Assembly: GCA_016794425.1 (NCBI GenBank)
Contig: JAEUHR010000028.1
Span: 186,001 to 250,000, forward strand
Length of the DNA stretch: 64,000 nt
Source: Planctomycetota bacterium
GTDB taxonomy: Bacteria; Planctomycetota; UBA1135; UBA2386
Direction of reading: 5' to 3'
The notes under the pieces are model-generated. The model was not told where the DNA came from. It did not search any database and saw nothing but the letters and a program-made list of their open reading frames with translations. Shown here piece by piece: positions 25,221 to 46,716 of the stretch. Made by a program: the position numbers and the translations under genes. Position 1 is the stretch's first letter, and the number at the start of each line of letters is the position of its first letter.

Positions 25221-28108
25221 CCGAGACGTGGCGGCGCCGGCAGCGGCCCGTGTGGGCCTGGTTGGTCGGCGGCGCGGTGCTCGCCGCGCTCGGGTTGTCC
25301 TTGTGGGCGCTGTTCGAGCGCGCGGGCCGCGGCGCGCCGGCGGCGTCGTCGCCGACGGCGCCGGCTGCACCGACGCAACGCAGCGACAGAGACGGCGCCG
25401 TCACCACACTGGTCGCGCCGGCGGCCGAACGCAGCCGCGGCAGCCGCGCGATCGGCGGCACCGTGCTGCTGCCCGACGGCCAGCCGGTCGCCGGCGCCAC
25501 CGTCACGCTGCTGCGGGCGACCACCGCGTGGCCCGAGTGGCGCACCGAGCGCGTCGACGAAGCGATCACCGGCCCGTCGGGCACGTTCGAGTTCCGCGTC
25601 GCGCCGCGGCAGGCGCTGCTGGTCGAGTTCCAGCACCCGTCGTTCGCCGGCGGGCTGATCGAGGTGCCGCAGCTGGCGCTGCCGCTGCGCCTGCAGCTGC
25701 AGCCGGGCTTCGAGCTGTTCGGCGTGGTCACGACGCCGGCCGGCGCGCCGGTGTCCAACGCGCGCGTCGCGATCGAGGCCGTGATCGGCGACGACCGGCG
25801 CGTGCTGGCCGTGACCACGAGCGCGAACGGCGCCTACCGCTTCACGCGGCTGCACGCCGGGCCGGTGCGGCTGATCGCGCGCCACGACAACTGGCAACCG
25901 GCGGCGCTGCCGGTCGTCGTCGGTGATCAGGTGCGGCGCGATCTGACGTTCGAACGGCCGGGGCTGCCGCCGATGCGCGGTCGCGTGACCAGTCTGGCGA
26001 CGCAGGCGCCGATCGCCGGCGCCACGATCGAGGTGCTGCCGGCCAACGCGCGGCCCGGGCTCAGCGACCCGGCCGCCGCGGCGTCGACCGCCGACGGCAC
26101 GTTCCTGATCGCCGGCCTGCCGCGCGGCACCGCGCGCGTGCTGGTGCGCCATGCCGAGTACGGCGTCGTCTCGCGCACGATCGCGGTCGGCGGCGTCGCC
26201 GCCGAGCTGTCGTTCGAACTGCCGCCGCGCGCGACCGTGACCGGTCGGCTCGTCGCCGAGGACGACCCCGAGGCGCGCTTCGACGGCGAGGTGCTGCAGA
26301 TCCGCGACCCGTCGGGCGAGCTCAGCTACGCGACGGTCGCCGAGGACGGTTCGTTCCGCTGCAGCACGGCGCTGTCGCCGGGCTGGGCCGGCGTGCGGCT
26401 GGTCGGCAGCGCGCTGGCGTTCGTCGGCACGCGCAACGCCGCGACGGCGATCCGCGTCGACGAAGCCGGCGCGAACGACTTCGAGCTGCTGGTCGAGCCG
26501 GCGCGCACCGTGCGCGGCCGTGTGCTCGATCGCACCGGCGCGCCGCTGGCCGGTGCCACGATCACGCGCACGCGGCTGCTGGCCGACAGCACGCAGTCGA
26601 TCGGTTCCGCGTTGTGGGACCTCGACATCACGCAGCTGACCAGCCAGGTGGCGCAGCTGTTCCGCGACGACCGCGACGAACTGCTGGCGGTGTCGGCTGC
26701 CGACGGCACGTTCGCGCTGGCCGGGCCGGAGCCCGGGCCGCTGGTGCTGCGGACCGACCTGGCCGGGCACGGCCGCCGCCTGTTGCGCCTGATGGTGCCG
26801 CTGGACGGCAACCTGCCGGGGCTCGGCGACGTGGTGCTCGACGCCGGTTGCCGCATCGAAGGCCGCGTGCTGCGCGGCGGCCGCGGCCTCGCCGGCGCGC
26901 TGGTCACGGCCGACGGCGGCGAATCGCAGGCGGTCGCGGTGACGATCGGCGACGGCACGTTCCGGTTCGCCGACCTGGTGCCCGGCGACTACCGGCTGCG
27001 CGCGCGGCTGCCGTCGGCGGCCAGCGGCAGCCGCGAACAGCGCGTCGTCACGACGGCGCCCGGTCGCCCGGCGACCGACGTCGTGCTGGCGCTCGAGACC
27101 GGCCGCACCGTGCGCGGCGTCGTGCTCGGCAGCGACGGCCAGCCGGTGCCGAGCGCGCTGGTGACCGTGCGCGGGGCCGTCGGCCAGACGACGCTGACCG
27201 ACACCAGCGGCGACTTCCAGCTCGAACTGCCCGACCGGCCGGTCGAACTGCAGGTCTCGCTGGCCGACCGCAGCCGGCTGCTGGTGGTGCCGGTGCCGAC
27301 CGGGCAGCAGAACGTCGACGTGCAGCTCGACACGCCGCGCACCTGCACCGTGGTGGCGCAGCTCGCGGGCCTGCCCGGCAAGCAGCGGCTGGCCGGCGTG
27401 CTGGTGCGCTGCGTCGCGCTGGACGGCGGCGACGGCGATGCCCGCGCGCACTGGCTCGAACTCGGCAACGGGCAGCTGCGCTGGAGCTTCTGTCCGGTCG
27501 GCCGCGTGCGACTCGAGTTCTGGTGCGACGGCTTCGCGCCGCTCGCGGTCGAGCGCGAGTTCGCGGCCAACGAGACATACGACCTCGGCGAGGTCCTGCT
27601 CGAGACCGGCGCGCGGCTGCACGGCGTGGTCGTCGACGACGACGGCGAGCCGGTGGCGGGGGCGCAGGTCTGGCTCGGCGAAGAAGCCGACGTCGACCTG
27701 TTCGAACCCGCGGTGCGCACGGCCGCCGACGGGTCGTTCCGGATCGGCGGCGTGACGTCGCGGTCGGCGCGGCTGGCGGTGCGCGCGACCGGTTACGCGC
27801 CGCGCGTGCAGGACCTGGTGCTGCCGCGCGACGTGCTGGCGGCCGCACCGCTGCGCCTCGTGCTCGAACGCGGCGCGACGATCGAGGTGCAGCTGCCGCG
27901 CCGGCCCGGCCTCGAAGGCAGCTACGTGCAGCTGCGGGCCGGTGGCCGCGTGGTCGCCAACTCGGTCAGCGACGAGGGTGGTCGGGCGTGGTTCGCGAAC
28001 CGCAGCGCCGGCAGCTACACGGTGGTGCTGCCGGGGTCGGATCTGCCGGTGACCGCGGTCGAAGTCGAGCCGGGTGCTGCAGTGGTGCGCGTGCGCATCG
28101 CCGACTGA
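25217..28108 (+). CDS. Single-pass membrane protein with multiple CarboxypepD_reg (Ig-like) repeats
   Basis: 963 residues; the ATG at 25217 overlaps the kinase stop. A single membrane helix (VWAWLVGGAVLAALGLSLWAL split, about 12-32) anchors the N-terminus. The rest is a chain of about eight to ten beta-sandwich repeats, each with the pattern G.V...G.PV.GA.V......T...DG.F....L..G.Y.L, for example GTVLLPDGQPVAGATVTLL, GVVTTPAGAPVSNARVAI, GVVLGSDGQPVPSALVTV and GVVVDDDGEPVAGAQVWLG. These are CarboxypepD_reg/carboxypeptidase-regulatory-like domains, often in proteins that bind glycans or serve as surface scaffolds. In this operon it could be the sensor or target of the ECF-kinase system. No catalytic motif was seen. 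Confidence 0.85.
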   Translation: MTETWRRRQRPVWAWLVGGAVLAALGLSLWALFERAGRGAPAASSPTAPAAPTQRSDRDGAVTTLVAPAAERSRGSRAIGGTVLLPDGQPVAGATVTLLRATTAWPEWRTERVDEAITGPSGTFEFRVAPRQALLVEFQHPSFAGGLIEVPQLALPLRLQLQPGFELFGVVTTPAGAPVSNARVAIEAVIGDDRRVLAVTTSANGAYRFTRLHAGPVRLIARHDNWQPAALPVVVGDQVRRDLTFERPGLPPMRGRVTSLATQAPIAGATIEVLPANARPGLSDPAAAASTADGTFLIAGLPRGTARVLVRHAEYGVVSRTIAVGGVAAELSFELPPRATVTGRLVAEDDPEARFDGEVLQIRDPSGELSYATVAEDGSFRCSTALSPGWAGVRLVGSALAFVGTRNAATAIRVDEAGANDFELLVEPARTVRGRVLDRTGAPLAGATITRTRLLADSTQSIGSALWDLDITQLTSQVAQLFRDDRDELLAVSAADGTFALAGPEPGPLVLRTDLAGHGRRLLRLMVPLDGNLPGLGDVVLDAGCRIEGRVLRGGRGLAGALVTADGGESQAVAVTIGDGTFRFADLVPGDYRLRARLPSAASGSREQRVVTTAPGRPATDVVLALETGRTVRGVVLGSDGQPVPSALVTVRGAVGQTTLTDTSGDFQLELPDRPVELQVSLADRSRLLVVPVPTGQQNVDVQLDTPRTCTVVAQLAGLPGKQRLAGVLVRCVALDGGDGDARAHWLELGNGQLRWSFCPVGRVRLEFWCDGFAPLAVEREFAANETYDLGEVLLETGARLHGVVVDDDGEPVAGAQVWLGEEADVDLFEPAVRTAADGSFRIGGVTSRSARLAVRATGYAPRVQDLVLPRDVLAAAPLRLVLERGATIEVQLPRRPGLEGSYVQLRAGGRVVANSVSDEGGRAWFANRSAGSYTVVLPGSDLPVTAVEVEPGAAVVRVRIAD

Positions 28109-37207: not shown

Positions 37208-38674
<1,467 letters not shown>

Positions 38675-38867
38675 TGCGGGATGCTACGGCGTGGTGTCGG
38701 CGCAGCGATCACTGCTGTTGCAGTGGCGGGGTTGGGGGAGTGCACGGCGGGTGTTGGGGTTCGATGGTTCGCGAGGGTGCGCCGCTGGTTCTGATGGCTG
38801 GAGTGGGCTCGGGTTGCGGGATGGGGTGGAGCAGGTAGGCTGCAGGGGAAGGTGCTGCGGGTGATTT

Positions 38868-38895
38868 GCGCTCGCGGCTCAAGAAGACGTTGGCT
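38868..38895 (+). repeat. Right arm of a truncated attC-like site
   Basis: The 28 bases here repeat the right arm of the attC at 40596-40664: 16 identical bases (38868-38883 = 40633-40648), then AAGACGTTGG again (38884-38893 = 40653-40662), with GTCA missing between. It ends in GTTGGCT, close to the GTTRRRY recombination box. I find no matching left arm in the 190 bases upstream, which are G-rich and lack a gene. So only half of a site remains, just where the 5' edge of a gene cassette would be. Whatever cassette or integron platform preceded it seems to be lost. Confidence 0.65.
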
Positions 38896-40658
38896 TGACG
38901 GGAAACCTGGGCTTGTTTGTTCCCGCTGCCACGAGACACTCCTTCGACTCATCAGCTATGTAGGTGCAGGTGGATCCTCTCGGCTCGCATGACTACTACA
39001 GCTTGCTCGGCGTGCCTCGCAGCGCCTCCGCCGAGGCCATCCGGGCTGCGTTCCTTGCCAGCGTCAAGAAAGCACATCCCGACCGAATAGACAGGTCAAG
39101 CAGCCCGCTGGAGTGGGAGTTCGCCAATCAGCTGATGGCCGCTCTGACTAGGGCCTACGGCGTTCTGCGCGATCCCGCCCAGAGAGCGATGTACGACGCG
39201 GCTCTTGGCACCACACCGAAGCCAAGTGGATCATCGCGAGGCGAACCGGCATCTGGCGCGTCAAGGCCAACGCCTGACCCTAGGCGCGCAGCGCTACGGA
39301 AGGCCCAAGGGGCCGTCGTTCGCGGATCGGCGTACTTCCATCGCCTGTCACCCGAGTTGCAAGCCGAGCTTCGCGGTCGACAAGAGTCTGACAGCGCTGA
39401 TTCCGTGCGCCGGACCACGGAAAGCGCATTCGCTCACTATGTCGGAGTGCTCGTACTCGGCGGATGGCTGTGGTACTTGTTCAGCGGTGGCAGCAGTGGT
39501 TATGCCTGGGCATTGCCACTTGCCGTTGGGTACTACAGCATCACAGGCTTGTTGTCATGGTGGAGCACGGCTTCCATTCGCAAGATCTATAAGTGGCACC
39601 GAGCGCCTCTTCGTCCTTCGTTCTACCTGACACGGTTGCATTATGTCGTGACGACACTTGACTCCGTCTCCTTCTGGCCGCTGTGGGAGTTTCGCGACGC
39701 GTCGGTTGTGCACCATTACACGAATGGTGTGTATCAGCACTCTACGCTCAGCTTTTCTCTGGGGGATGACGCTCTTTCACTGCAGTTCCAGTCCAAAGAC
39801 GAGGTCGAGGCCTTCTGGAAGTCACTGCGCAGTTTTCAGACGGATGCAATCGGTGCGGAGCAGCGCTTGGACGTCGAGTACTTCCAGCGTAACAACCGGT
39901 TTAGTGGAGTTGCCACAGATCCGGTCAAAGCAGGTCCGGGGCTGCCGAGGCGCTGGGCGGTGGCCGCCATTCTGGTCGGAGTCGCGACGTGCTTCGCAGC
40001 CTCCGTCAAGAATGATCAACTAAGAGACTCCAAGTGGTTCAAGCATGCTGCGCTTCCGGCCATTCCGTCGACTACGCCTTCAAGGCCAAGCCCAAACCCG
40101 TTCTTGCGGCCGGCTCCTGAAGGCAGTCCGACGGCCATCTTCGCCAACAGTCATCCTCCGCAGCCTTTACCACCTAACGGTGAGGTGCGTACGTCATCGC
40201 GACGTGAGCGCATAGCGCCTTTGACGGTGCGAACTGACGCCGGAGACTTCTACCTAGTGAAGTTGGTCGATTCGACGCGAGGGACACAGTTGACCGTGTT
40301 CATTCGCGGTGGCGCGCCACTGGAGGTCGATGTTCCTCTGGGTACGTACGAGCTGCGCTACGCGAGCGGTGCCACATGGTTCGGGTACGAGTTTCTCTTC
40401 GGTCCGGAGACATCCTATGCCAAGGCCGACAAGTCATTCACGTTCTCACGATCTGGGGACAGCGTGTCGGGTTATGAGGTTACGCTGTACAAGGTCCGGG
40501 ATGGCAACCTGCACACAACAGAAATCGCGGCCGACAAGTTCTGACCCGTTAGGCGAGCCTCTTGACGGCAGGCGCTCGCGATCCCGCTGGCCGCAAGCCA
40601 ACAAGACCTTGGAGCCGGCGAGCGCCGAAGCGGCGCTCGCGGCTCAAGGTCAAAGACG
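38890..40658 (+). mobile_element. Putative integron gene cassette carrying a J-domain membrane protein
   Basis: If the crossover points are G^TTGGCT at 38889/38890 and G^TTGGGT at 40658/40659, a 1769-bp cassette results, with one gene in the correct orientation, about 75 bases from its 5' end, and an attC at its 3' end. Base composition is clearly less GC-rich than both flanks, and codon use is relaxed (many A/T-ending codons). No integrase gene is visible in the window, so this would be an integrase-less cassette stranded in the chromosome. Confidence 0.6.
38964..40544 (+). CDS. J-domain (DnaJ-like) integral membrane protein in an integron cassette
   Basis: 526 residues from a GTG at 38964 (a second GTG at 38970 is possible). 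An N-terminal J domain (about 8-78) has the DYYSLLGVPRSASAEAI start and the essential HPD at 38-40, so it should stimulate an Hsp70. A Pro/Arg-rich linker leads to two membrane helices (about 156-200). Then comes a soluble segment (about 205-320) with SFWPLWEFRDASVVHHY and NGVYQHSTLSFSL that looks like a bacterial PH-like domain. A third helix is near 335-350, and after a Pro-rich linker there is a C-terminal domain (about 415-526) with EVDVPLGTYELRYASG and FLFGPETSYAKADKSF. I know this C-terminal block from proteins of mobile and proteobacterial DNA. Substrate and role are unknown. Confidence 0.82.
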   Translation: MQVDPLGSHDYYSLLGVPRSASAEAIRAAFLASVKKAHPDRIDRSSSPLEWEFANQLMAALTRAYGVLRDPAQRAMYDAALGTTPKPSGSSRGEPASGASRPTPDPRRAALRKAQGAVVRGSAYFHRLSPELQAELRGRQESDSADSVRRTTESAFAHYVGVLVLGGWLWYLFSGGSSGYAWALPLAVGYYSITGLLSWWSTASIRKIYKWHRAPLRPSFYLTRLHYVVTTLDSVSFWPLWEFRDASVVHHYTNGVYQHSTLSFSLGDDALSLQFQSKDEVEAFWKSLRSFQTDAIGAEQRLDVEYFQRNNRFSGVATDPVKAGPGLPRRWAVAAILVGVATCFAASVKNDQLRDSKWFKHAALPAIPSTTPSRPSPNPFLRPAPEGSPTAIFANSHPPQPLPPNGEVRTSSRRERIAPLTVRTDAGDFYLVKLVDSTRGTQLTVFIRGGAPLEVDVPLGTYELRYASGATWFGYEFLFGPETSYAKADKSFTFSRSGDSVSGYEVTLYKVRDGNLHTTEIAADKF

Positions 40659-40664
40659 TTGGGT
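40596..40664 (+). repeat. Integron attC recombination site (69 bp hairpin)
   Basis: The ends are AGCCAAC (40596-40602, R'' box) and GTTGGGT (40658-40664, R' box, a perfect GTTRRRY); six of seven bases pair. Inside, GACCTT (40605-40610) pairs with AAGGTC (40646-40651), G611 bulges, GAGCCG pairs with CGGCTC, G618 bulges, and CGAGCGCCG pairs with CGGCGCTCG around an AAG loop. The bases between boxes and stem (AA on the left, AAAGAC on the right) stay unpaired. Two extrahelical bases on one strand, an unpaired spacer and a conserved R' box are the recognised layout of attC. It lies 51 bases past the J-domain stop. Confidence 0.85.
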
Positions 40665-40695
40665 CAGTCCTCACACCTTCTGAGGTGCTCAAGTC

Positions 40696-41388
40696 ATGCT
40701 GTGCGTCAACGATCGTGCGCGTATGCCAGAACTCGAACCACGGTTGCCTGAGATTACGGAGGCATGTCTCCTGGCAGTTGCAGGATCCGTCATTGTTTGG
40801 ACCGGATTCCGCATGGTCACGCGGGGGTGGCGAGAGGCAAATGACCGGACATGGGTGCTGGGAAGGCCGGTCTGGATTCCCTTCTACGGAGTCGTGGCGG
40901 GAGTCATTTGTATTGTCTCCATGTTCCGGCACCGGGGCTTTGGGTCCTTCGGCATCTCCTGGCTGGGTCTTCAGTTGGGTCTGCTGGCCGCGTTCTTGCG
41001 TGTGATTCTGAAAGGACGCCCCATTATCGGCAGGAACACGTGGTCCCCATTGCGCAAGCATGTAGCACAGTCCATCAATGTGCTGTGGGGAGGAGTCCCG
41101 GATGGGCTGATGCCGCTGAGCTATGCATCTCATTGGCGGTGGTCAACAGTTCTCTTGGCTGCGTTCGGCTCCAGTCTCTTGCTGCATACGATTGTCGCCG
41201 ACGTGTCAGAGGAGACGCGACTGACCTGGATTGTGCAGAACTCCAGCGTTATTCTATTCGCAGCGTGCGCCTGGATCGCAATCGAGGCAACCCTCGCCAA
41301 TTCCCGCCTGGGCATGCGGTGGGCGTCCATTGCTTGTTGGCTTGTCGCTGGTGTCGGCGTGACATCATCCTTCTTGGATTTGTCCTGA
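40696..41388 (+). CDS. Polytopic membrane protein of unknown function in the low-GC island
   Basis: 230 residues from the ATG at 40696, or 221 from the ATG at 40723. Hydropathy shows five or six membrane helices: LLAVAGSVIVWTGF, VWIPFYGVVAGVICIV, ISWLGLQLGLLAAFL, STVLLAAFGSSLLLH, SSVILFAACAWIAI and WLVAGVGVTSSFL. No motif is recognised. The gene starts 32 bases after the attC R' box and shares the A/T-richer composition, so it is probably the next cassette. The matching downstream attC was not found. A cassette gene without its own attC may be fixed in place. Confidence 0.65.
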   Translation: MLCVNDRARMPELEPRLPEITEACLLAVAGSVIVWTGFRMVTRGWREANDRTWVLGRPVWIPFYGVVAGVICIVSMFRHRGFGSFGISWLGLQLGLLAAFLRVILKGRPIIGRNTWSPLRKHVAQSINVLWGGVPDGLMPLSYASHWRWSTVLLAAFGSSLLLHTIVADVSEETRLTWIVQNSSVILFAACAWIAIEATLANSRLGMRWASIACWLVAGVGVTSSFLDLS

Positions 41389-41753
41389 GACGACAGTGTC
41401 ATTGGGTCTGCAAACACAATGCGCTACTGCAAGCCGACTCGCAGGGACGTGCAGTAGTTGGTGGCTACCAGTGACCCAGTAGGAAGCGCATCCCGACGAA
41501 TCGGACCCGGGGCAGTCCCCTGAACCCTCGCGTACCTGGGTTGGTCTTGCGTCCCGTTCCTTCCCCTGTTCCCCGTGTTCCTGCCCTCAGCCTTCGCGCG
41601 CAGATCCTGGCCGGTACCGCCTGTGCCTGTCGATTCTCTTGGTGCTTCTGCCCGTCAGACCCATCTGGCTGCGGGCTTGGCAGGCCTCGGAAGGGCAATG
41701 GTGAAGGACCCAGACACGCGCGAACGCTCGAGCAGCTCCAACCACACCCACGC
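41389..41753. other. Gene-free stretch with an attC-unlike hairpin and a palindromic GGGGCAGTCCCC element
   Basis: No convincing gene lies here; ORFs across it read as low-complexity translations. CTACTGCA (41424-41431) pairs perfectly with TGCAGTAG (41450-41457) around an 18-base loop, and TGGGTC (41403-41408) can pair with GACCCA (41473-41478) outside it. There are no R boxes or extrahelical bases, so it is not a standard attC. At 41509-41520 lies GGGGCAGTCCCC, similar to short palindromes that RAYT (REP-associated) transposases mobilise in some environmental bacteria. From about 41500 composition moves back to the high GC of the chromosome, so the island border lies in this stretch. A pyrimidine-rich tract fills 41540-41600. 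Confidence 0.5.
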
Positions 41754-42356
41754 ATGACCCCCACGCAGCTCCGCGACCGCGCGATGCACCTCGCCAAGGA
41801 GGATCCCGACGCCGCGCTTCGCCTCGCGCGCGAAGTGCCGGCGCCGTGGTTCCGGGCGCAGGCGCTGGCGGCCGTCGCGCGCTGGATCGCCGCGCCCAAC
41901 GTCGAGACCACCGCCGCGGAGGCATTGAGCGCCGCCAGCGCCTGCCACGACGACTACCAGCGTGCAGCCGTCGCCGCCTGGCCGATCCGTGCCTTGCTCG
42001 AGCGCGGCCATGTCGACAGCGCGGCTGCCGCGCTCGCGGTCGCCCGGGCCCGCGCGCTGGCGGCGACGCCGTGCGGTTCGCGCGCCGAAGCACTGCTCGG
42101 CCTGCTGCAGGCGGCCTGGAGCCTGGGGGCGGAGGCGCGCCGGACCCTCGTCGAGGACCTGTGCACCGCGCACGAGCAGGACTCGTTCTGGCGGGTGACC
42201 CGCGCGCTCGCCGACGCGTTGGCAATGGTGCGCGCGACCGAACCCGATCTGACCGAACGGATCCTCGCGCGCTTGCCGGAGTCGCCGGCGCGAGCCAGGA
42301 TCGAGCGGGCGCTGGCCCGGCACGCTGCGCGAACCCCGCGTTCCTACTTCGCATGA
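41754..42356 (+). CDS. Alpha-helical hypothetical protein (HEAT/TPR-like)
   Basis: 200 residues from the ATG at 41754. The protein is almost all helix with repeating Ala/Leu positions (RDRAMHLAKEDPDAALRLA, RAQALAAVARWIAA, RAEALLGLLQAAW), reminiscent of two-helix repeats. No signal peptide, no membrane helix, no enzyme motif. Its TGA overlaps the ATG of the propeller lipoprotein (ATGA at 42353-42356), so the two are probably co-expressed. It is the first high-GC gene after the cassette island. I do not recognise the family. Confidence 0.65.
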   Translation: MTPTQLRDRAMHLAKEDPDAALRLAREVPAPWFRAQALAAVARWIAAPNVETTAAEALSAASACHDDYQRAAVAAWPIRALLERGHVDSAAAALAVARARALAATPCGSRAEALLGLLQAAWSLGAEARRTLVEDLCTAHEQDSFWRVTRALADALAMVRATEPDLTERILARLPESPARARIERALARHAARTPRSYFA

Positions 42357-43444
42357 CCTCACGCCGCACTGCGACCGTCTCCCTGCGCACCACAGCGACC
42401 CTGCTGGCCGCCGTCGCCGCGGCGGGCTGCACCGCAGGAGCCGACCGCGTGGTTCGGCCGCCGGCCCGCCTGAAGTTCGCGGTGACGCGTTCCGTGCTGC
42501 AGGACCGCAGCGGCAACTACTGGTTCGGCAGCTGGAACGAAGGCGTCTGCCGTTTCGACGGCGAGACCTTCACCTACTTCACCGTCGCCGACGGCCTGAC
42601 CGGCAACCAGGTCCGCGCGATCCAGGAGGACCGGAACGGCGTGGTCTGGTTCGAATGCGACGCCGGCATCTGCGGCTTCGACGGCCAGCGGATCGTGACG
42701 CCGTCCCGGCGCGACCATGCCGCGAAGCACGACTGGCGCATCGCGGCGGGGGATCTGTGGTTCATGGCCAACGGCGCGGTCGGCGCGACCGAGGTCGAAG
42801 CGCTGCCGGGCTGCTACCGGTACGACGGCGAGGTCTTCACCTTCCTCGCCTATCCGGTGCGTGCCATGCCCGACCAGTACCCGAACTTCGCGACCACGGG
42901 CATCGCCCGCGGCCGCGACGGCCGCGTGTGGTGCGCGACCTATGACGCCGTGTTCGGCTACGACGGCCGGTCGTTCACGACCCTCGACGACCGCAGCCTC
43001 GGGCTCGGCGGGGACTCGGGTCGCCTGCACGTCCGCTGCGTGCTCGAAGACAGCAAGGGGCGGCTCTGGATCGGCAACAACGGCATCGGCGTGCTGCTCT
43101 ACGATGGCCAGTCGGTCCGCGGGTTCACGCAGGAGATGGGGCTCGGTCGGGCCGGCCGACACGGCGACCGGAACGTGCCGCTGCCCGGCGATGCCGCGCC
43201 GGGCGCGCCGTCGATGCACCGCGTGTTCTCGCTCGGCGAGGACCGCGCCGGCAACATCTGGTTCGGCACCATCGAGCACGGCGTGTGGCGCTACGACGGC
43301 ACGTCGATGCGGAACTTCACCGGCGCGGACGGCATGACCAGCGCCGACGTCTTCGCGATCTACACCGACCGCCACGGCGACCTGTGGGTCGCCGGCAACG
43401 GCGTGTTCCGGTTCGACGGCACCCGGTTCGAGCGCGTCTTCTGA
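42353..43444 (+). CDS. Two-component-regulator-propeller lipoprotein
   Basis: 363 residues with a lipobox AAAGC (about residue 26). The mature protein is built of at least seven short repeats of the reg_prop type: QDRSGNYWFGSWNEGVCRFDG, QEDRNGVVWFECDAG, RGRDGRVWCATYD, EDSKGRLWIGNNG, EDRAGNIWFGTIEHGVWRYDG and TDRHGDLWVAGNGVFRFDG (each given in pieces of the same pattern, D..G..W.G....G..R.DG). These fold as a beta propeller, usually the sensor half of hybrid two-component proteins in Bacteroidetes. Here it stands alone as a lipoprotein, so it may bind a ligand or partner. The preceding gene overlaps its start. Confidence 0.85.
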   Translation: MTSRRTATVSLRTTATLLAAVAAAGCTAGADRVVRPPARLKFAVTRSVLQDRSGNYWFGSWNEGVCRFDGETFTYFTVADGLTGNQVRAIQEDRNGVVWFECDAGICGFDGQRIVTPSRRDHAAKHDWRIAAGDLWFMANGAVGATEVEALPGCYRYDGEVFTFLAYPVRAMPDQYPNFATTGIARGRDGRVWCATYDAVFGYDGRSFTTLDDRSLGLGGDSGRLHVRCVLEDSKGRLWIGNNGIGVLLYDGQSVRGFTQEMGLGRAGRHGDRNVPLPGDAAPGAPSMHRVFSLGEDRAGNIWFGTIEHGVWRYDGTSMRNFTGADGMTSADVFAIYTDRHGDLWVAGNGVFRFDGTRFERVF

Positions 43445-43450
43445 CCGGCC

Positions 43451-43474
43451 GCGCCGCGGCCTTGACCGCGGCGC
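43451..43474 (+). terminator. GC-rich terminator-like hairpin
   Basis: A perfect 9-bp stem GCGCCGCGG/CCGCGGCGC with a 6-base CCTTGA loop begins seven bases after the propeller-protein stop. No T tract, but very stable; the likely end of the two-gene transcript. Confidence 0.5.
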
Positions 43475-43521
43475 CGCGATCCGGTCCAACGCCGCGCCTG
43501 CGACACCCCACGGCAGACACC

Positions 43522-44100
43522 ATGGCGACGACGGACTCACGCGTGACGATCCACATGACGGCGAGCCTCGACGGCTTCATCGCGCGGCGCGACGGCAGCG
43601 TCGACTGGATGGAGACCAAGGACGAGTTCGCCGGCGGCGCGGTGCTGACGCCGGAGTCCATCGCCGCGTTCCTGCAGACGATCGACTGCTACGTGATGGG
43701 CTCGCGGACCTACGAGACCGCACTGCAGTTCGAGGCGAAGGGCTTCGGCTGGGCCTACGGCGACAAACCGACGTTCGTGCTGACCACGCGGCGCCTGCCG
43801 CGCACGCGCGACACCGTCGAGTTCTGCGGTGGCGACCTCGCGCGGCTCGTCGACGACCGGCTGCGGCCGCGGTTCCGCAGCATCTGGGTCGCCGGCGGCG
43901 GCGCCGTGGCCGGCGAGTTCCTGCGGCGCGGCCTCGCCGACGAACTGTGCTACTCGGTGCTGCCGGTGCTGATCGGCGACGGCATCGCGTTCTTCGACCG
44001 GCTCGACCGCGACGTCGCGCTGCACCTGACCGAGGTCAAGGCCTGGACGACCGGCATGGTCGAGATGCGCTACGCGGTGGCGAACCGGCGTCCCGCGTAG
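43522..44100 (+). CDS. RibD C-terminal/dihydrofolate reductase-like protein
   Basis: 192 residues from the ATG at 43522. It has the RibD_C fold: VTIHMTASLDGFIARRDGSVDWM at the N-terminus (in pieces MTASLDGFIARRDG), YVMGSRTYETAL, and WVAGGGAVAGEFLRRGLADELCYSVLPVLIGDGIAFF near the C-terminus (split GGGAVAGEFLRRG). These are the NADPH-binding marks of YwjB/YyaP-type proteins. The enzymes reduce pteridine or similar substrates, but most members have no known role. It converges with the M1 peptidase gene. Confidence 0.85.
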   Translation: MATTDSRVTIHMTASLDGFIARRDGSVDWMETKDEFAGGAVLTPESIAAFLQTIDCYVMGSRTYETALQFEAKGFGWAYGDKPTFVLTTRRLPRTRDTVEFCGGDLARLVDDRLRPRFRSIWVAGGGAVAGEFLRRGLADELCYSVLPVLIGDGIAFFDRLDRDVALHLTEVKAWTTGMVEMRYAVANRRPA

Positions 44101-44112
44101 CAATCCGCGCGT

Positions 44113-46716
44113 CTATTTGCGCTCGGAGAACGTCGACCGCACGCGCACCGCGCGTTCGAGCCCGTCGCGCGACTGCAGCAGCTTCTGCCGCACGTCGGTC
44201 GACAGCTCGGCCTTCGCCGCGAACGCGTCGACGATCGCCAGCGCCGCCGGCGTGCTGTGTGCATTGACGAATGCGTCGAGCCACGCCGGCATGAAGAAGA
44301 TGCGGCGGTTCTGCTTGACCCAGTCGACGCGCTCGAGCGCCGGCTGCAGGTACGGCAGCGTCAGCTCCTGCTGGCCCGGCCAGTGGAACCACGCGAGACT
44401 GTCCTGGGTCCACTGCTCGGGCGGCGTGTCGAGCTGCAGGTACTGCCGCCAGTAGTCGGCCTTCGCGTCCGCGGTCGGCGTCGCCGCGCGGGCGAGGAAC
44501 ACGTCCTTGCCGACGTCCTCGTTGGCGAAGCGCTGCTGCAGCCGTTCGACGTCGTCGCGGCCCTGGCCGGCGGCCAGCAGCGCGGCGGCGGCCAGGAAGC
44601 AGTCCTGCTTGCCCGGCACCAGGCCTTGCGGCAGCGCGTCGCCGTCGACGACCGCGCGGCACAGCGCCAGCACGTCCGGCGCCGCGCTGGCGCGGGCCAG
44701 GAAGCGGAACGTGCCGAGCTCGCGGCCCGAGCCGGCTTCGTCGCGCAGCTGCCGCAGCAGCAGCGCCGTCGTCGTCGCACCGGCGGTCGCCGCGCGCGCC
44801 GGGTCGAGGTAGCGGCGCACGCAGGTGCCGAGCGCGTCGAGCAGCCAGCCGTGCGTCTCGGCGTCGCGTTCGCCGGCCAACAGCCGCAGCGCCAGATCGA
44901 CGAACACGGCGGGGTCGAGTTCGGCCTCGCGCACCGCTTCGAACAGCGCCTGCGCGGCGACCGCGCGCACCAGTGGGTCCGGCTCGTCGGGCAGGTGCTG
45001 CGCGAACCAGGCGCGGCTGGTCGGATCCGGCACGAACTGGCCGTAGGCGACGTCGCGCGGGTTCAACAGCACCGCGGCCGGCGCCGGCCCGCCCGCCAGC
45101 GCGTCGATCGGCAGGCGCTCGGCGTCGCCCGACACCGACAGCGTGCGCCGCGTGCCGTCGGCCGCGAACACCAGCAGCTCGAGGTCGAGCGGCCAGGTGC
45201 CGTCGCCGCCGAGCGCGCGTTGCACGACCGCGGCCTCGGCGACCGTGCCGTCGTCGGCGCGGCGCCACTCGATGCGCACCTGCGGCATCGACGGTGCCAG
45301 CAGCCACCGTTCGGACCAGCGGCCCAGATCGGTGCGCGCCGCCGCCTCGAGCGCGCGCGCGAGGTCGCGCCAGTCGGCGGCGCCGAACGCGTGCGTCTCG
45401 AGGAACCGCTTCAGGCCCTGGCGGAACACTTCGGCGCCGAGCTGCTCGTGCAGCTGGCGCAGCACCGCCGGCGCCTTGTTGTAGACGATCGCGCCGTAGG
45501 CCGACTTCGCGTCGGCGAGGTTCTGCAGCTCCTGGAACACCGGCGTCGTGCCCGGCGTCGCGTCGACTTCGTAGGCGCGCGGCTTCACGCGCTGCAGGAA
45601 GCGCAGCCACGAGCGCTGTTCGGGCTCGAGTTCGGCCAGTGCCTGGTGCGCGACGAACGTCGCGAAGCCTTCCTTGAGCCACAGGTCGTCGAACCAGCGC
45701 ATCGTCACCAGGTTGCCGAACCACTGGTGGCTCAGCTCGTGGTAGACCAGCGTGCTGCGGCGCACGAGTTCGGACGCGGTCGGCGGGTGGTCGAACAGCA
45801 GCGCGGTCTCGCGGTAGAAGATCGCGCCGGCGTGCTCCATGCCGCCGTACGGGAAGCCGGGCAGCAGCACGACGTCGAGCTTGCCGAACGGGTAGTCGAC
45901 GCCGAAGCGCTGCGCCAGCCAGCGCAGGCCCTGTTTGTGCATCGTCGCCAGCCGTTCGCGGTCGAGGTGGCGCAGCTGCGAGCCGCGCACGAACAGCCGC
46001 AGCGGCTGGGTCGGATCGACGCCCGGCGCCTGCACCGGACCGGTGTCGACGACTTCGAACGGACCGCACGCGAACGCCATCAGGTAGGTCGGCAGCGGCC
46101 TGGTCTGATCGAACTGCCACAGCGTGCCGTTCGCCGCGGGGCGGCCTTCGGCGCGCGTCGCGATGCGCGGCGTGTTGGCGACTGCGACCCACTCCGGCGG
46201 CAGGTCGAGCTCGACGCGGAAGCGCGCGCGCAGGTCCGGCTGGTCGAAACACGGGTACAGCCGGTGCGCGTCGGCGGGCACGACCAGCGTGTAGCAGTAC
46301 TCGCGACCGTCGGCCGGGTCGCGGTAGACCGTCAGCGGCGTGCCGGTCGGCGCGACCGGCGAACGGAACCGCGCGTGCACGTCGTTGGCGCCCGGTTGCA
46401 GCAGATCCGCCGGCAGCAGCACGTGGTTGGCCACCGCGCGCAGCGCGGTCTCGCGGCCGTTGACGCGCACCTCGGTCAGCTCGTCGCCGGCGAAGTCGAG
46501 CACCAGCGGCGCACCGGGCGCGCGGTCCCGGTCGAGCTGGAACCGCAGCCACACCGACCCGCGCACGTGCTGTTCGCCGGCGCCGAGCTGGAAGCGCAGA
46601 TCGTATTCGACGTCGCGCACGCGCGCGGCGCGGTCGCGCGCGAGTGCGCGGTCGATGCCGGGCACGGGGTCCTGCGGGATCAGGGACACGAGGCACAGCA
46701 ACGCGAGGCCGAACAT
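44113..46716 (-). CDS. Secreted M1-family zinc aminopeptidase
   Basis: 867 residues with a signal peptide ending near LIPQDP (residue 15). The zinc site is HELSHQWFGN (H326, E327, H330), with the third ligand E349 in WLKEG. The exopeptidase motif is GGMEH (291-295) instead of the usual GAMEN. YNKAPAVLRQLHEQLG is the transition-state Tyr region (Y near 438). The C-terminal helical domain follows from about 580. The family trims N-terminal residues from peptides. It could act on peptides released by the M28 or other envelope proteases. Confidence 0.9.
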   Translation of the reverse strand: MFGLALLCLVSLIPQDPVPGIDRALARDRAARVRDVEYDLRFQLGAGEQHVRGSVWLRFQLDRDRAPGAPLVLDFAGDELTEVRVNGRETALRAVANHVLLPADLLQPGANDVHARFRSPVAPTGTPLTVYRDPADGREYCYTLVVPADAHRLYPCFDQPDLRARFRVELDLPPEWVAVANTPRIATRAEGRPAANGTLWQFDQTRPLPTYLMAFACGPFEVVDTGPVQAPGVDPTQPLRLFVRGSQLRHLDRERLATMHKQGLRWLAQRFGVDYPFGKLDVVLLPGFPYGGMEHAGAIFYRETALLFDHPPTASELVRRSTLVYHELSHQWFGNLVTMRWFDDLWLKEGFATFVAHQALAELEPEQRSWLRFLQRVKPRAYEVDATPGTTPVFQELQNLADAKSAYGAIVYNKAPAVLRQLHEQLGAEVFRQGLKRFLETHAFGAADWRDLARALEAAARTDLGRWSERWLLAPSMPQVRIEWRRADDGTVAEAAVVQRALGGDGTWPLDLELLVFAADGTRRTLSVSGDAERLPIDALAGGPAPAAVLLNPRDVAYGQFVPDPTSRAWFAQHLPDEPDPLVRAVAAQALFEAVREAELDPAVFVDLALRLLAGERDAETHGWLLDALGTCVRRYLDPARAATAGATTTALLLRQLRDEAGSGRELGTFRFLARASAAPDVLALCRAVVDGDALPQGLVPGKQDCFLAAAALLAAGQGRDDVERLQQRFANEDVGKDVFLARAATPTADAKADYWRQYLQLDTPPEQWTQDSLAWFHWPGQQELTLPYLQPALERVDWVKQNRRIFFMPAWLDAFVNAHSTPAALAIVDAFAAKAELSTDVRQKLLQSRDGLERAVRVRSTFSERK

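Follow-up and report, generated by a model that had tools for sequence, protein, structure and literature searches.

The usual picture of an integron is one integrase gene, intI, with one attI site and one promoter in cis, and its integrase, IntI, inserts circular gene cassettes at the sequence G^TT. Cassette DNA away from intI is called a CALIN when at least two attC sites and no intI are found, the default threshold of IntegronFinder 2.0, in which attI detection is limited to class 1 (PMC9024848). CALINs have been proposed to originate by off-target insertion, loss of intI or rearrangement (PMC8618304); in Xanthomonas they occur at recurrent loci distant from intI, and attG insertion sites have been described (PMC12444791). 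Truncated attI sequences in cassettes have been described as well (PMC12901181). In the literature searched, subscription papers and preprints excepted, we found no description of dispersed, intI-free platforms composed of a cassette promoter (Pc) and attI, which is weak evidence of novelty.

Here we analysed a window of 64,000 nucleotides (contig C16, positions 186001-250000) from the 5.4-Mb draft genome of a planctomycete (64 contigs, 93% complete), part of which the initial annotation had read as an integrase-less integron cassette. We consider it likely that this locus arose when an integron cassette entered a Pc-attI platform without intI, one of several dispersed landing pads. Its features, in window coordinates, are as follows.

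37208-38674, minus strand: leucyl aminopeptidase gene, left flank of the insertion
38690-44124, no strand: lineage-specific insertion
38814-38841, plus strand: predicted cassette promoter Pc
38842-38895, plus strand: predicted attI
38890-40658, plus strand: gene cassette of 1769 bp, bounded by two G^TT crossover points
38964-40544, plus strand: gene for a J-domain membrane protein, 526 aa, GTG start
40596-40664, plus strand: attC of the J cassette
40696-41388, plus strand: ORF for a 230-aa multi-transmembrane protein
44113-46716, minus strand: aminopeptidase N gene, right flank of the insertion

Comparison with 10 relatives by blastn and tblastn showed that the leucyl aminopeptidase and aminopeptidase N genes are adjacent in G003, G004, G008 and G012, and that one small gene separates them in G001. 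Because the two genes stand side by side in relatives, the insertion of 5.4 kb is lineage-specific, and the empty site that the initial annotation had proposed to look for was found in relatives. Alignments of the nearest relatives to the window end at 38689 and restart at 44125-44128. As claimed, the DNA between the repeats is low in GC (approximately 0.59 versus 0.74); this low-GC stretch runs on to around 41.75 kb, where it holds a second ORF, and 41.75-44.1 kb has normal GC. Only the left, low-GC part of 38690-44124 belongs to the cassette region. The high-GC segment at 41754-44103 encodes a hypothetical protein, a propeller-like protein and a DHFR-like protein, is not cassette-like and, compared with these relatives, lies between the two aminopeptidase genes only in the source genome. 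The congener G002 is rearranged: the DNA beside its aminopeptidase N gene (G002:C9, L061) matches window 25446-28106, and relative to window positions 28106 and 44128 about 16 kb, including the leucyl aminopeptidase gene, is gone or relocated. The region is therefore a rearrangement hotspot.

The attC at 40596-40664 is real, with every feature originally ascribed to it: its R and L boxes pair (AGCCAAC as R'', GTTGGGT as R'), the spacers are unpaired, two bases are extrahelical and the loop has 3 nt. Its hairpin folds more stably than shuffled sequences (z = -5.7 for the top strand, -6.5 for the bottom strand). The covariance-model search that had been proposed as a check recovered it at 84 bits (E 3.7e-20), using a model trained on 15 attC sites of relatives, none from the source genome, whose structure has 32 cells with both sides changed, a count that 0 of 500 shuffles reached. 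The same model found further attC sites in the source genome on C15 (E 6.8e-20) and C31 (E 3.1e-9 and 5.2e-8), and matches at E<=1e-3 in 22 of 37 genomes (source genome included), often on several contigs. With filters off, it detected a single attC in 38500-44200, so that the locus falls below the CALIN threshold; an Rfam scan of 37-43 kb gave no matches. We also observed that the source genome's contig ends share sequences: one is common to C29 (L011 16810-16942) and C6 (L251 1-75), another to C31 (L005 8190-8326) and C46 (L199 1-145). Both contain ATAAGGCCCCCTGA, placed inside attC sites, and the C31 end reads MRFYTKPHKHYCGIDLHAR, which resembles the start of an IS110/IS1111-type transposase. 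An element like IS1111-attC that targets attC is likely here, and would explain the contig breaks.

Between the attC and the upstream repeat lies a single gene in cassette orientation, as first described. Its predicted product carries a J domain (Pfam DnaJ, E 2.3e-12 at residues 10-78) with the HPD motif at residue 38, as expected of an Hsp70 co-chaperone, and two predicted transmembrane helices (155-173 and 330-351), in keeping with the J domain and membrane helices of the initial annotation. The 'mobile-DNA-type domain' that it placed at the C terminus has to be given up: the structure model of this part is beta-rich, at moderate confidence (pLDDT 69), with no PDB match below E 1e-3, and no family in Pfam, NCBIfam or PADLOC covers it. 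The C-terminal 130 residues recur with 36-55% identity in 17 loci from several phyla. Relatives over the full length occur in metagenome-assembled genomes labelled Kuenenia (32% over 557 columns), Verrucomicrobia, Opitutae and Bacteroidia, several of them with gene GC below that of the surroundings; at E 1e-10 no match was found in two congeners and the other family genomes searched. A coarse hairpin scan found no attC behind homologues of the C-terminal domain in other phyla. An integron cassette with a J-domain gene is present as described, and the J-TM-middle-TM-C-terminal architecture, which recurs in other phyla without detectable attC, is not peculiar to cassettes. We read the protein as a membrane-anchored J protein that has been transferred sporadically and is here cassette cargo. 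The C-terminal beta domain itself (around 130 aa, VPLGxYxLRYAxGxxWYGxxxLFGPxTxY in the matched regions of L204-L220), for which no Pfam or NCBIfam model was found, is fused in many phyla to intact or degenerate J domains or to zinc-ribbon-like stretches. The second, 230-aa ORF is predicted from hydropathy to encode a multi-TM protein and shares the cassette orientation and low GC; it matched no family in Pfam, NCBIfam or PADLOC, and no attC belonging to it was found up to 44200 with filters off. Its membership in a cassette array is uncertain.

A tblastn search of the window detected no intI, so the locus lacks the intI in cis that defines a complete integron. In a profile search of the source genome, the sole match above the TIGR02249 cut-off was at C29:22984-23925 (424 bits, cut-off 265), on a contig that ends about 1 kb past intI. 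The label 'integrase-less' is thus apt for the locus and wrong for the genome. Matches above this cut-off were present in 41 of 199 genomes searched. In several genomes of the family, a sigma-70-type promoter (-10 of TAGGCTG or a similar sequence) stands downstream of the intI stop codon on the same strand, and GTTGG or GTTAG follows approximately 47 nt further on. We read this arrangement as a predicted Pc and attI on the 3' side of intI.

A similar arrangement precedes the J gene. The predicted Pc comprises a -35 TTGCGG (38814-38819), N16 and a -10 TAGGCT (38836-38841), a motif and spacing that recur on C29 and C15. It is followed by a predicted attI of 47 nt and then GTTGGCT, with the crossover at 38889/38890; the spacing from promoter to GTT is conserved with the intI-linked attI sites of relatives. 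From the -10 to GTTGG the distance is 47 nt in the window, 46 nt on C15 and 47 nt at the intI-linked site of C29. TTGNNN-N15..18-TAGGCT was confined to these three places in the 153.5 kb of source-genome DNA scanned, and a genome-wide search for the promoter combined with GTTGG gave exactly three occurrences (none in the reversed control). The core of the window attI has diverged: models trained without the source genome match mainly its promoter half, and scored the site at E 0.14, at 3.5e-4 in 158 kb and at 0.041 genome-wide. The attI assignment at this site therefore draws on the combination of promoter, spacing, position and junction.

Because insertion takes place at G^TT, the bases 3' of the G of attI derive from the inserted cassette's own R'; with this R' left at attI, the cassette's R'' should be the reverse complement of the attI 7-mer, and not necessarily of the adjacent R'. 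This provides a test of a cassette insertion site from sequence alone, in which the R'' of the attC must match the upstream junction. In the window, GTTGGCT at 38889-38895 and the J cassette's R'', AGCCAAC, are fully reverse complementary (7/7), as expected of a circular intermediate, whereas the adjoining R', GTTGGGT, reaches 6/7. Nineteen arrays allowed the first attC detected to be assigned to a predicted attI; complementarity was 7/7 in 16 of them (12 of the 15 intI-free arrays), compared with a mean of 4.2 of 19 when junctions were shuffled among arrays, and 16 was not reached in any of 20,000 shuffles. For the adjacent R', 7/7 was seen in 7 of the 19. The 7/7 complementarity therefore places the window cassette at 38890-40658. 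Since attC-attC junctions obey the same rule, the test supports cassette insertion and cannot alone separate attI from attC.

Beyond the window, some 20 other Pc-attI platforms without intI are present in the planctomycete family, with as many as four in one genome, and most of them lead into low-GC cassettes with attC. Their consensus contains TTCGG...CGAAGAC(G/T)AGTTGG. A hidden Markov model of attI trained solely on eight intI-linked attI regions recovered 13 platforms without intact intI at E 1e-3 to 2e-15 (best reversed-sequence match, E 1.9); additional platforms were found in G009, in G008 and in G011, the last with only about 0.7 kb of upstream sequence examined. A second model, of 19 aligned platforms, gave 27 matches at E<=2e-6 across 81 genomes, none of them outside this family; most of the 27 are its training set, and those outside it are C29 and C6 of the source genome and sites in G004, G009, G017 and G027. 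C6 is the fourth platform of the source genome, and an R''-like GTCTAAC near its contig end, read directly, matches the attI 7-mer GTTAGAC. Where enough downstream sequence was available, orphan platforms were mostly followed by a drop in GC and by attC sites in the same orientation. Within a genome, paired units remain similar from GTT upstream to a point somewhere between -55 and -211, where the similarity breaks off sharply; in G031 the shared stretch starts approximately at the intI stop codon. Together, these comparisons point to Pc-attI modules without intI, alike over some 55-210 bp, scattered across the chromosomes of the family.

In G030, two different orphan attI sites carry members of one cassette family (MSAINRFK...) joined at GTT, as predicted by site-specific insertion at orphan attI. 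The two G030 junctions are identical over 90 nt, up to the contig ends, and cassettes of this family also sit against attC right arms, twice in G022 and in a further array of G030. IntI was not found at E 1e-60 in the draft genomes of G022 and G030, and some platforms may thus be inactive. Two candidates were discarded. The identical sequence after three attI sites of G003, considered as proof of IntI activity, matches the start of an IS91-family element in G027 and G017. The platform at G001:C56 looks identical to the intI-linked attI of G001 and begins at a contig end; it is probably an alternative junction of that locus. The IS91-family element lies directly at the GTT of attI in three genera (L252 4040-6200 in G027:C11; L254 3230-5400 in G017:C278; and three times in G003, with starts in L095, L137 and L138) and carries its own tyrosine recombinase (PF00589, PF13495, Y2_Tnp, Zn_Tnp_IS91). 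It possibly targets attI.

The alternative that survives best is that a complete integron once stood at the window locus and later lost its own intI, leaving a fossil and not an active landing pad. Fragments of the intI C terminus (around 76-80 aa) beside cassette arrays in G022:C136 (L144) and G014:C101 (L187 4390-4617) are integrase genes decaying in place and favour such a history, as does the diverged core of the window attI. However, the window Pc begins 140 bp from a conserved aminopeptidase gene with no intI remnant, and the sequence common to intI-linked and orphan units ends at -55 to -152. The C6 platform is 98% identical to the C29 attI over 59 nt, yet no intI match was found in the 5.6 kb upstream of it. 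Insertion of the cassette at the window locus would, moreover, still have required IntI. We regard a decayed integron as unlikely.

The initial annotation had called 38868-38895, a stretch contained within the predicted attI, a 'half attC'. It matches the right arm of the J-cassette attC at 26 bases, beginning with a 16-nt exact copy (38868-38883) that is followed, after a 4-nt gap, by AAGACGTTGG. On this basis, the upstream element could be a remnant of an earlier cassette's attC with its left arm deleted, making the locus an ordinary CALIN fragment, and the junction rule would be equally valid. However, no attC left arm was found upstream, and the stretch takes the place of attI in a Pc-attI module: the promoter motif 47 nt ahead of it also precedes the intI-linked attI and the C15 array. 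The C15 half-site has CGGCTCAAG-n-AGACGTTGGC in common with the window without the GCGCTCG part. An origin from two attC sites thus seems improbable, and we infer that the stretch is better explained as a diverged attI with promoter than as a half attC; attI homology alone is no explanation for the 16-nt identity. Off-target insertion at a chance chromosomal GTT (attG) behind an ordinary promoter would yield the same junction at a site type already described (PMC12444791), and such insertion by a distant IntI is one proposed origin of CALINs (PMC8618304), but it is improbable here given a promoter and GTT spacing that are those of intI-linked attI sites and rare in the source genome, and orphan sites that in most relatives are plainly homologous to attI.

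We return to a cassette inserted at an intI-free platform. In a first step, which sequence comparison supports, the chromosome would have carried attI and the cassette promoter by themselves, ahead of the gene for leucyl aminopeptidase. A second step, which is strongly supported, would have joined the circular J cassette at G^TT, with its own R', GTTGGCT, staying at attI and R'', AGCCAAC, in attC. The integrase may have been supplied in trans by the intI on C29, and the J gene would be transcribed from the predicted Pc. More broadly, the integron of this family is best described as comprising a single integrase gene and several dispersed landing pads. We lean towards a multi-platform integron, in which Pc-attI units of about 55-210 bp have spread without intI and one integrase loads cassettes and has them expressed in trans. 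If so, a single integrase could deliver captured genes to several chromosomal addresses and have them expressed there, and the reading of CALINs would change, some of them being active landing pads and not ruins. Because the available software searches for attI in class 1 only (PMC9024848), such an arrangement would be missed.

Compared with a sedentary chromosomal integron, the system shares attC structure, cassette orientation, the G^TT junction, a predicted attI with an outward promoter and a TIGR02249 IntI in the genome; it differs in that the window locus lacks intI, the source genome has several predicted Pc-attI sites, and attI in this family lies on the 3' side of intI, on the same strand. 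Like a CALIN, the locus has cassette DNA and an attC away from intI, but it opens on its 5' side with a predicted Pc and attI and contains one attC only. The Delta-attI-type cassettes of class 1 and 2 integrons also have attI sequence away from intI; in those, short pieces of attI (14-18 nt in class 1) stand in for the attC downstream of an ORF within arrays (PMC12901181), whereas here a predicted attI with promoter stands upstream of whole arrays at separate chromosomal loci. As in attG insertion, the cassette lies away from the primary attI, but the targets are homologous to attI and carry a predicted Pc, and are not scattered consensus sites.
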